Of a stretch of DNA of 64,000 nucleotides, positions 7,075-9,274 are shown one piece after another; the first letter of the stretch is position 1; every line of letters begins with the position of its first letter. Source of the stretch: Fibrobacter sp. UWR3 (GTDB lineage: Bacteria; Fibrobacterota; Fibrobacteria; Fibrobacterales; Fibrobacteraceae). Position numbers and translations under genes: made by a program. A model generated the notes under the pieces. The model saw only the letters and a program-made list of their open reading frames with translations. It had not been told where the DNA came from and did no database searches. The DNA lies in assembly GCF_900143055.1 (NCBI RefSeq), contig NZ_FRCW01000003.1, positions 124,001-188,000 of the forward strand, given 5' to 3'.

Positions 7075-7922
7075 TATACTCCTCGAGTAAGCGGAAACAG
7101 TTGTATGTTCACCTGAACCACATCGTCCGCTTCGCCAGGCTTTGCGGAGAAATCTAGTAGTTCTTTGCGCATGAGTTGGATATGTTTTTTCAAATTGGGA
7201 AAATCTGAGCGCTTGATACTGAACGTCAGTGCAGATATATCGCGTTCCGCACTCGGGAGTTCATTCATCATGTTGGCCGAGATGCGCAGCATCTGCTGGT
7301 GATAGAGTTTCACCATCATGTCTTGCACTTCGTCATCGGTCGTGAGCATCGGGTCGCGCTGGCGGTAACCGTTGGCGGTTTTCACCAGGAGGCCGAGTTC
7401 CATAAGGAGGTCAAAAGATTCCTGCACCTGCGAGGGCGTGACCATGCCGCGGAGTTTGCGGCTCACCCAGTCGGGAATCGGGCGGAAGCCCTTGAGGGCG
7501 ACCATTTCCAGAATGACGGAGTGGTGCCATTCGCGGAAGATGCGGAACTGCGCCTGGTCCATCTTGTGCAGCTTGGAGCGCGGGCTCGCCTTGAGGAGCT
7601 GCGCATAGTATATCTGCTTTTCGGTGTCGTTCTGGGCCTGGTTAAAGAACACCAGGCTTTCGAAATAAGCGGCACGCTGCTTTTCGAGGCCTAAACCCTG
7701 GATGAGCTTCAGTACGGTTCCCTTCGTGATATTGCGCTTGCCGTCGATGGTAAGCTTCAGGTGGGCGTGGCTCGACAGCCCCGCCTTCTCAGCGAAGAAA
7801 CGCAAACTGAAAGAGGGCTGCGTCTTTTTCTTGTATTCGTAGTAATCACGGAGATACACACGAAAGTTGGTGTACTGCAGCACATCCGGTTCAGTTAAAA
7901 TTATTTTCTCACCATTGTCCAT
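7074..7922 (-). CDS. TIGR02147 / DUF4423 family protein, probable regulator
   Basis: 282 residues from the ATG at 7920-7922; a TTG 12 codons upstream is the alternative. The N-terminus (YTNFRVYLRDYYEYKK...PSFSLRFFAEKAGLSSHAHL...GKRNIT) matches the TIGR02147 opening, where an XRE-like helix-turn-helix is plausible. The C-terminus (DISALTFSIKRSDF, then VQVNIQLFPL) matches the ending of the other two family members in this window. The biochemical role of the family is not established to my knowledge; DNA binding is inferred from the N-terminal helices. The gene is directly coupled to the CBM-like lipoprotein at 5809-7074. It is cytoplasmic, with no signal peptide. Confidence 0.85.
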   Translation of the reverse strand: MDNGEKIILTEPDVLQYTNFRVYLRDYYEYKKKTQPSFSLRFFAEKAGLSSHAHLKLTIDGKRNITKGTVLKLIQGLGLEKQRAAYFESLVFFNQAQNDTEKQIYYAQLLKASPRSKLHKMDQAQFRIFREWHHSVILEMVALKGFRPIPDWVSRKLRGMVTPSQVQESFDLLMELGLLVKTANGYRQRDPMLTTDDEVQDMMVKLYHQQMLRISANMMNELPSAERDISALTFSIKRSDFPNLKKHIQLMRKELLDFSAKPGEADDVVQVNIQLFPLTRGV

Positions 7923-7997
7923 GCCTATAAGATAGCAGAATGTAAGCTTTAGGAACAAAAAAATTTACGTTTTCGTGTTTACCCAAGAAACCAGGGG

Positions 7998-8022: not shown

Positions 8023-8135
8023 TTGCGGGTTTTGGACCGTTTATTGCGGGTTTTGGACCGTTTATTGTGGGTTCAAGACCGTTTATTGCTGGTTTTGGAC
8101 CGTTTATTGCTGGTTCAAGACCGTTTATTGCGGGT
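8023..8135. repeat. 21-bp tandem array, five copies plus a partial
   Basis: Copies start at 8023, 8044, 8065, 8086 and 8107, each TTG-C/T-GGGTT...GACCGTTTA in form; two variants alternate (GGTTTTGGACCG and GGTTCAAGACCG). The last full copy supplies the stop codon of the acetyltransferase gene on the minus strand (8125-8127). A related 20-bp array lies at 58596-58675. Confidence 0.9.
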
Positions 8136-8772
8136 CGCGGGCAAGGCGGGAAAAGCGCACGTGGTCTTCGAATTTCCCGTTAATTCGCTCAAATTCGCGG
8201 GAAAAGCCCTCTTGCGTATAGCCTGCGCGGGTGGCGACGGCCTGGCTTGCCTTGTTGGTTACAGATGCCGAAATTTCTAGCCGGTTGAGGCCGAGCCTGT
8301 TGAACGCAAAATGCGAGAGGATCTTCAGGGCATCGGTCGCAAGCCCCCTGCCGGTAAAGCATTCGCCGAGCCAGTAACTCACGCTCGCGGATAGGTGTGC
8401 CGCCTGAATCCAGCCGAGGATGATGACGCCTGCGAGTTGAAGGTCGCTTGCGTGTTGCTGGCTGCTTGCGGGAACTGAACCGTCCGCGGGCCTTAAACTG
8501 CCCGCGGATTGCGAACTGCCCGCGCCCTTCGCAAAGATACCCCAGCAGGCGCCGTTCGCCATCTGGGCCTGGATTTCCCACGAATCGATGCGGGACTCGA
8601 CATCCTCGACGCAGGTACATTCCGCGGGCCACGGCAAATGGCGGGCAAGAAACTCGCGACTGCCGTCTATGAGGGAAAACAGCGCGGGCGCATCGCCTTC
8701 ATGCAGCAGGCGGAGCGTAACTCGCTCGCCGCGCAGTTCTTCGTCGGGAATTTCGTCCAGGAAGTTTTCCAT
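8125..8772 (-). CDS. GNAT acetyltransferase, RimJ/RimL-like, with low-complexity insert
   Basis: 215 residues from the ATG at 8770-8772. The RimJ/RimL pattern is clear: RGERVTLRLLHEGDAPALF at the N-terminus, YWLGECFTGRGLATDALKILSHFAF (acetyl-CoA motif A) and NRLEISASVTNKASQAVATRAGYTQEGFSRE near the C-terminus. The probable reaction is N-acetylation of a protein N-terminus or small amine. About 30 residues rich in S, A, G and Q (GSSQSAGSLRPADGSVPASS) interrupt the region before strand 4, where relatives have a short loop. The 3' end lies inside the 21-bp array. No strong binding site is visible before the start. The 85-bp hairpin array lies upstream. Confidence 0.85.
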   Translation of the reverse strand: MENFLDEIPDEELRGERVTLRLLHEGDAPALFSLIDGSREFLARHLPWPAECTCVEDVESRIDSWEIQAQMANGACWGIFAKGAGSSQSAGSLRPADGSVPASSQQHASDLQLAGVIILGWIQAAHLSASVSYWLGECFTGRGLATDALKILSHFAFNRLGLNRLEISASVTNKASQAVATRAGYTQEGFSREFERINGKFEDHVRFSRLARDPQ

Positions 8773-8813
8773 GTGGAGCAAAATTAGCAAACGGAATGCA
8801 GGCTAGATGCTTG

Positions 8814-9123
8814 AGCAGACCAAATCACGAAGACGGCGCCGTTTGGTCTGCTGGGAATGCGATTTTTTGATGTAGGACGCCGGCTTTTTGACCAAAGTAG
8901 CAGACCAAATCGAAGTAAAACGGCCTTTTAGTCTGCTGACGGCGCATTTTCCGGGCTACAAGAATGGTGTTTTGAGTTGAATCAGCAGACCAAATCGAAG
9001 TAAAACAGCCTTTTAGTCTGCTGACAGCGCATTTTCCGGGCAACAGGAATGGTGTTTTGAGCTGAATCAGCAGACCAAATCGAAGTAAAACAGCCTTTTA
9101 GTCTGCTGACGGCGCATTTTCCG
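8814..9123. repeat. 85-bp tandem array of hairpins, four units
   Basis: Units begin with AGCAGACCAAA at 8814, 8899, 8984 and 9069, exactly 85 bases apart; the last is partial. Each contains an 11-bp hairpin: in the first unit AGCAGACCAAA (8814-8824) pairs perfectly with 8842-8852, and in the others the 3' arm is TTTAGTCTGCT with one mismatch. The spacer between hairpins is also conserved in units 2-4; the first unit has diverged. No gene overlaps it. On the minus strand it lies between tRNA-Leu and the acetyltransferase gene. Confidence 0.9.
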
Positions 9124-9156: not shown

Positions 9157-9187
9157 GAAAAACCGCCGGACGAATCCGACGGGTTTT
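9157..9187 (-). terminator. Probable terminator of tRNA-Leu
   Basis: Read on the minus strand, AACC-GTCGGA, TTCG loop, TCCG-CGGTT, then a T-rich tail: an imperfect stem directly after the tRNA 3' end. Confidence 0.6.
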
Positions 9188-9190
9188 CAG

Positions 9191-9274
9191 TGCGGATGAA
9201 AGGACTTGAACCTTCATGCCCTTGCAGGCACTAGAACCTGAATCTAGCGTGTCTACCAGTTCCACCACATCCGC
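9191..9274 (-). tRNA. tRNA-Leu(CAG)
   Basis: An 84-base class II tRNA on the minus strand. The acceptor stem is GCGGATG...CATCCGC with discriminator A. The D-arm contains GGTAGACACG. The anticodon stem CTAGA/TCTAG closes the loop TTCAGGT, giving anticodon CAG. A long variable arm (TGCCTGCAAGGGCA) follows, typical of leucine tRNAs, and then the T-arm with GGTTCAAGTCC. The 3' CCA is not encoded. It reads CUG codons. It stands alone, followed by a terminator-like hairpin and then the 85-bp hairpin array. Confidence 0.95.

Follow-up and report, generated by a model that had tools for sequence, protein, structure and literature searches.

Downstream of a tRNA-Leu gene, the chromosome of Fibrobacter sp. 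UWR3 carries four palindromes in a strict register. Do they represent transcribed RNA hairpins, as the initial annotation had implied, or do they serve as a target in double-stranded DNA? We analysed the locus in a window of 64,000 nucleotides (contig NZ_FRCW01000003.1, positions 124,001 to 188,000, forward strand), to whose first letter all window coordinates refer, and compared it with the remaining UWR3 genome and with other genomes. The window array is probably a solo copy of a phased dyad array, a dispersed Fibrobacter DNA element to which a protein would bind.

Four palindromes beside tRNA-Leu

The palindromes start at positions 8814, 8899, 8984, and 9069, which bears out the annotated step of exactly 85 bp. 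The dyads have no strand and occupy 8814..8852 (unit 1), 8899..8937 (unit 2), 8984..9022 (unit 3), and 9069..9107 (unit 4). They are separated by three 46-bp linkers (total span 8853..9068, likewise without strand), whose A/T tracts are phased with the dyads. Tandem Repeats Finder called the 85-bp array at 8899-9123 with 95% matches, and the word AGCAGACYAAA occurs eight times in the window, always within the array, at a chance expectation of 0.02. Each unit had been described as carrying an 11-bp hairpin. A palindrome is indeed present in all four, but the perfect stem AGCAGACCAAA/TTTGGTCTGCT is confined to unit 1, where perfect 11-bp arms enclose a diverged interior, as had been stated for the outermost unit. 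Units 2-4 contain one changed base and terminate in TTTAGTCTGCT, which gives a C/A mismatch when the + strand is folded and a U-G pair when the - strand is folded.

The array is flanked by a GNAT acetyltransferase gene (8125..8790, - strand), the 5' end of which is 24 nt away, and by the tRNA-Leu (CAG) gene (9190..9274, - strand). Its position 3' of tRNA-Leu agrees with the annotation, which had placed it on the transcribed side of that gene; however, a terminator-like hairpin at 9163..9182 (- strand, read 9182-9163), which is context outside the element, intervenes. Only one open reading frame, a short frame of 72 aa, crosses the array. An Rfam scan of the window (gathering score) returned nothing but tRNA, and no intrinsic terminator (short-loop hairpin plus T run) was called in 8814-9107. 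The array does not look like a CRISPR, as the annotation had recognized: CRISPR arrays combine constant repeats with unique spacers, whereas here the whole unit including the linkers of units 2-4 repeats, and the variation lies in the interiors, inside the palindrome. Elsewhere in the window, a 21-bp direct repeat (8023-8135; 5.4 copies, two helical turns per copy) lies directly upstream of a TIGR02147 gene at 7077-7958 and is possibly its operator.

According to the initial annotation, an array found only in this strain, with identical units and no transcripts, would be a recent slippage product. This argument fails because a second Fibrobacter species keeps the four-unit array: Fibrobacter sp. 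RGIG8275 (L113 and L134) carries it beside tRNA-Leu with 95.3% identity over 407 nt and no indel. The genes surrounding it are about 81% identical between the two species; the window array is better kept than these nearby genes. The proposed selection on the stem also stands. In three ortholog comparisons, the arms had 5 substitutions in 176 positions, compared with 50 in 528 for interiors and linkers (p = 0.003). A fourth comparison, with UBA4375, was excluded from this sum because it repeats one UWR3 locus.

Arrays also turn over between species. The array by rpe retains about 69-78% identity in aligned pieces, and its unit number is 5 in one species and 3 in the other. At the tRNA-Leu site, a search of 29 relatives revealed no GCAGACY array, with gap orthology uncertain at some loci that matched mainly the tRNA. 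Only a short gap is left at this site in G029 and others, and G001 carries an array of another family (ATGCATATAAA, spacing 170 bp) to the left of tRNA-Leu (L321). By eye, the empty tRNA-Leu sites were too diverged for the exact element ends, and with them any MITE-like target-site duplication, to be placed. Downstream of gapA, GCAGACY-family arrays are restricted to UWR3 and G033, and G061 has another family there.

A dispersed class of palindrome arrays

Phased dyad arrays form a many-locus class and are not a local oddity of the window. The stem AGCAGACCAAA occurs 19 times in the UWR3 genome versus once for the reversed control, a few of the occurrences being single words within genes. The pattern CAGACYAAA-N(6-30)-TTTRGTCTG gave 22 sites (control, 0), all 22 with an interior of 17 nt, and a fixed-length search allowing up to three mismatches gave 32 (control, 0). 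These 32 palindromes are distributed over about 14 intergenic loci, most of which hold two to five. The 37-bp dyad may be read as two inverted half-sites, each with a putative head, GCAGACY, and a putative tail, AAAT.

A blastn search with the 310-bp array found no match in 59 relatives, and pattern searches were therefore needed. Among 60 genomes (UWR3 included), matches with at most two mismatches were confined to UWR3 and G033. When its interior was set to 10-24 nt, the pattern returned 71 stretches from 84,980 species genomes. The 12 from Fibrobacter (RGIG8275, RUG11683, UBA4375, and RUG14609) all had the 37-nt form, and those with neighbours were mostly spaced at 84/85 or 169/170. The 59 stretches from outside Fibrobacter were for the most part single and of other lengths, with the exception of the Lachnospiraceae genome RUG13380; viral contigs searched with the palindrome pattern gave no match. 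RUG13380, a MAG, contains 38-nt TGCAGACTAAA palindromes (L103 943-1283, L133 6331-6578) at a spacing of 53 bp (5 turns), with one gap of 90 that is off phase, and one TACGGACTAAA palindrome. These palindromes share their half-site style with Fibrobacter, and a search of the RUG13380 loci for the nuclease-like gene described below did not find it.

Further stems emerged from a de novo scan for palindrome pairs with equal arms in 1.26 Mb of the UWR3 genome. The scan recovered mainly the phased-array class, with stems GCAGACY, TAGGACTAAA, GGCGGTGAAA, and TTACATACC; some pairs look like chance. A second motif, TTRYRYAYAAASTAA, adjoins many dyads and has 13 sites in the UWR3 genome (control, 0). 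Searching for it exposed arrays with stems GGGTACC and GGGGCATATAA, and several of the 13 sites are intragenic with no array. Written as TTRSRTAYAAASTAA and scored at 12/15 or better, this accessory motif is present in 19 of 26 UWR3 arrays versus 229 of 3000 random 260-bp windows, and in 17 of the 26 it lies 4-7 nt from a dyad. At the same threshold, it is absent from the window array. Among the relatives, G029 carries a TTTACGGACTA family and G061 a TTTACGTCAAA family, and 400 kb of G030 contained no array of the class. All four GGCGGTG arrays in the 1.26 Mb of UWR3 are located on one contig (C2; 6757, 48506, 63829, and 229704), two of them immediately preceding genes whose products read like lipoproteins.

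Gene context was assessed with calls from a simple script based on codon usage instead of a standard gene finder. On this basis, and by reading, GCAGACY arrays lie between convergent genes at 8 of 14 loci (two of the 14 being unclear); in the background, the fraction is 30 of 157 gaps at least 250 bp long (p = 0.002). This preference does not extend to the class as a whole, since 18 sampled arrays of all families comprise 6 in convergent, 7 in same-direction, and 5 in divergent context.

Helical phase of dyads and linkers

Distances between neighbouring dyad centres were compiled by hand, each distinct spacing being entered once for a given locus. They amount to 63.5-64, 84-85, 95-96, 105.5-106.5, 117, 127, 136-137, 158, 161, 168-169, and 199 bp. 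The period that fits them best, and best of all between 5 and 30, is 10.55-10.57 bp; 10.55 bp is the helical repeat of B-DNA. The mean cosine was 0.91 for 34 values taken per locus, 0.87 for 20 values distinct per family, and 0.84 for 15 values distinct overall. None of 20,000 jittered null sets matched the fit, and this held when values were counted once per family. One spacing, 161 bp, falls out of phase.

The linkers, whose sequence is poorly conserved, follow the same phase. In a profile of A/T content around 61 dyads, for which long tandem arrays were trimmed to 2-3 units, maxima lie near 0, 10, 22, 31, 42, 54, and 63 bp. With the dyad bases masked, the linker A/T tracts were phased to the dyads with a mean cosine of 0.48 (null mean -0.003, sd 0.05, maximum 0.15, n = 400), and the value was positive in all six families. 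For the window array alone, it was 0.41, based on 67 tracts within 75 bp of dyad centres. A palindrome-blind scan for 10.55-bp A/T phasing returned 22 loci at z of at least 28, and 11 of them are arrays, the window array included; at periods of 8.5 to 9.5 and 11.5 to 13, the scan gave 0-2 loci. The window signal comes from a 180-bp stretch without strand at 8864..9043, where z = 29.6, a value reached by 0.7% of sampled intergenic windows. In a separate case of A/T phasing (UWR3 C2:257243-257422 and G030 C1:29113-29292), a gene and its phased upstream region are 90% identical between the two genomes, with one 23-bp upstream indel.

Whole arrays within a family are roughly 60-75% identical, and homology stops near the outer dyads. 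Because arrays within a family are homologous, the equal spacing and the linker signal partly reflect common descent. Common descent does not, however, explain the agreement between families or the differing whole-turn spacings inside one family. The whole-turn spacing and the phased linker A/T tracts favour a double helix contacted on a single face over RNA hairpins, and on these phase data the element is most likely a double-stranded DNA target. The implication in the initial annotation that the hairpins are transcribed and linked to tRNA-Leu finds no support, as the class is dispersed over the genome, its stems vary, and spacing and A/T tracts track the helix repeat. Overall, what had been observed at the locus is partly confirmed and its interpretation partly supported.

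Because dyads and A/T tracts share one face of the probably curved double helix, a sequence-specific protein could occupy several adjacent dyads at once and wrap the DNA or draw it into a loop. A separate version of this protein would read each of the stem families, which include GCAGACY, TAGGACT, GGCGGTG, and GGGTACC.

An array-linked protein and the nature of the element

In RGIG8275, a gene encoding 289 aa (L069) has a GCAGACY array on either side. The two array copies are in direct orientation and 80% identical in an alignment that begins at the first dyad. Homologs of the encoded protein (37-38% identity) were found in UWR3 beside a TTACATACC array (C1) and beside a TAGGACT array (C4), and a truncated homolog lies beside a GCAGACY array in RUG11683 (L073). 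Fibrobacter homologs in the 3.16 Mb examined number only four, and all four are array-adjacent, with 71-129 nt between the array edge and the annotated start of the nuclease-like gene in every case, across three stem families. Two of the four cases were met in the UWR3 sample; the other two were fetched for their arrays. Of the 966 genes in the UWR3 sample, 9 face an array at a distance of up to 150 nt, and the chance of both homologs being among them is 8e-5. Most arrays have no nuclease gene nearby.

Searches of Pfam, NCBIfam, and PDB with the array-linked protein retrieved no family. Its C-terminal 110 residues match PADLOC PDC-S68 (best E 1e-24) and resemble parts of AAA ATPases and of RecD/RecQ-like helicases on plasmids; one of the proteins also matches HEAT_CxxC_PDDEXK (5e-5). 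PDC-S68 has the C-terminal PD-(D/E)XK-like domain in common with the array-linked proteins but is about 1200 residues long, whereas the latter have 274-292 residues and another N-terminal part. The AlphaFold model (mean pLDDT 42) was too poor for use. Viral contigs contained no relative of the protein by the criterion of the search tool, and the gut contigs with distant homologs that we examined contained no arrays.

The L069 locus is a solo array in UWR3 and on contig 92 of RUG11683, and it bears the gene in RGIG8275 and on contig 108 of RUG11683. In RUG11683, L073 and L120 appear to be the nuclease-bearing and the solo version of a single locus, carried by two contigs that are 90% alike over the array and right flank; the presence of both locus forms in this MAG perhaps reflects a strain mixture. 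The best candidate for the binder is this putative two-domain protein, with an N-terminal part of no known family and a PD-(D/E)XK-like nuclease end, because its diverged members accompany three stem families. That it is the binding partner of the phased arrays is a tentative proposal, which we hold to be possible but not probable. Array-nuclease-array cassettes might be mobile, with solo arrays serving them as targets or as places to land.

A literature search that covered few subscription papers returned nothing on palindromic intergenic repeats of Fibrobacter or on repetitive elements of this sort in F. succinogenes, and no match for helically phased extragenic palindromes, convergent-gene palindromes, or PDC-S68/S69. 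Known systems resemble the arrays in part. REP/BIME elements are described as palindromes scattered between genes, grouped in small clusters and frequently close to gene ends, with a gyrase link in E. coli (PMC3733652, PMC6379681), and the REP palindrome as tagged by GTAG or CGTC at one end (PMC3733652). The Fibrobacter arrays are likewise dispersed, clustered intergenic palindromes, often near gene ends; they differ in their fixed 17-nt interior, their helix-following spacing, and stems that vary by family under one layout. No GTAG/CGTC tag was seen on reading the listed GCAGACY dyads and their flanks, and the Y1 (TnpA-REP) transposase family PF01797 had no match in the UWR3 genome, compared with matches in 5 of 14 control genomes. 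For these two reasons, membership in REP/RAYT was rejected. Phased operator arrays are a feature of the looping or wrapping regulators NrdR, Lrp, and LacI/GalR, whose dyad sites also stand at whole helical turns. The Fibrobacter arrays differ in occupying tens of loci, many of them off promoters, and in having several head families. Lrp/AsnC wrapping sites were discarded because the UWR3 genome has no match to PF01037, which is matched in 11 of 14 control genomes. Homing endonucleases provide a further parallel, with a nuclease-like gene beside the arrays and both occupied and solo forms of one locus. At L069, the gene lies within its presumed target, between two direct array copies, with the nuclease domain assigned by profile only, and its locus exists in occupied (RGIG8275, RUG11683 contig 108) and unoccupied form (UWR3, RUG11683 contig 92). 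Here, however, the target would be a multi-dyad array, a copy of which stands on each side of the gene, and cleavage is putative.

The main rival to a dedicated binding protein is that some general enzyme or a nucleoid protein wraps DNA at the arrays, with the palindromes being secondary. DNA gyrase would be the foremost candidate, by comparison with E. coli BIME-2 and the strong site of phage Mu. We consider this rival unlikely, although the continuous 10.55-bp A/T phasing around the dyads and the preference of GCAGACY arrays for convergent gaps (8/14 versus 30/157) speak in its favour. Strong gyrase sites likewise show an A/T pattern that is helically periodic over a long stretch and suits wrapping, and the helical G+C periodicity over about 130 bp that is expected of them is found here, the A/T profile extending to 65 bp on each side of the dyad. 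According to PMC6379681, the flanks of E. coli gyrase sites show a helical periodicity of 10.75 bp, and gyrase cuts are enriched in BIME-2. The Fibrobacter arrays differ from these sites in their exact heads, their several families, and a period of 10.55 instead of 10.75 bp, and gyrase binding and cleavage at the arrays are putative. Moreover, a general enzyme would require neither exact family-specific 7-bp heads nor a fixed 17-nt interior, and the other families show no convergent enrichment (6 convergent, 7 same direction, 5 divergent; n = 18 for all families). Less probable still are transcribed RNA hairpins that would stabilise a 3' UTR, act as processing sites, or belong to a small RNA. 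The palindromes do fold well as RNA, with z against shuffles below -3 in three of the four single-hairpin foldings of the window palindromes and -2.7 in one; unit 2 with its flanks gave z of 0.4 and -0.8 in two foldings. In addition, GCAGACY arrays often lie between gene ends, and the changed bases of units 2-4 form G-U pairs only on the - strand, which is the strand of tRNA-Leu and GNAT. The side with G-U rather than A-C switches between loci, however, for instance at L059 and L061 versus the window (by reading), and RNA needs neither whole-turn spacing nor phased linker A/T tracts. Nor was any terminator-like site called in the array or any Rfam family assigned to it.

Two other explanations appear highly improbable. 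The array could be an operator for a TIGR02147/DUF4423 paralog, such as the one encoded at 7077-7958. UWR3 has 28 paralogs over the cut-off, compared with none in 14 control genomes, and 4 of 26 arrays lie within 2.5 kb of a paralog where 0.91 are expected (P = 0.011, post hoc). The upstream regions of the paralogs lack such arrays, however, and TIGR02147 regulators are the weaker candidate for the array binder; their function seems unstudied in the literature searched, which included few subscription papers. Alternatively, the arrays might be neutral debris, either slippage products or relics of a short mobile element, with no present function. This would be compatible with the 60-75% likeness of same-family arrays and the end of homology near the outer dyads, with the empty site in most relatives, and with unit numbers that vary between species at some loci. 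It is at odds with arms that are better kept than interiors and linkers, with a window array better kept than nearby genes, and with a phase that persists while the sequence diverges.

The reading that we favour is a dispersed DNA target. More speculatively, and with considerable doubt, the arrays may belong to a new kind of element, in which a sequence-specific PD-(D/E)XK protein is wrapped by phased dyad arrays that have heads of their own in each family, a common geometry, and an accessory motif. The gene would spread into solo arrays, tens of which per chromosome would serve as target or architectural sites and might affect neighbouring genes. The repeat class is set by geometry, not by sequence: the stems vary across families and species, and the helical phase persists. 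A class defined in this way gives a handle on the protein that reads it, with a candidate nuclease for which paired occupied and solo loci exist. Phased arrays may also be a test case for whether bacteria possess dedicated DNA-wrapping sites outside promoters.
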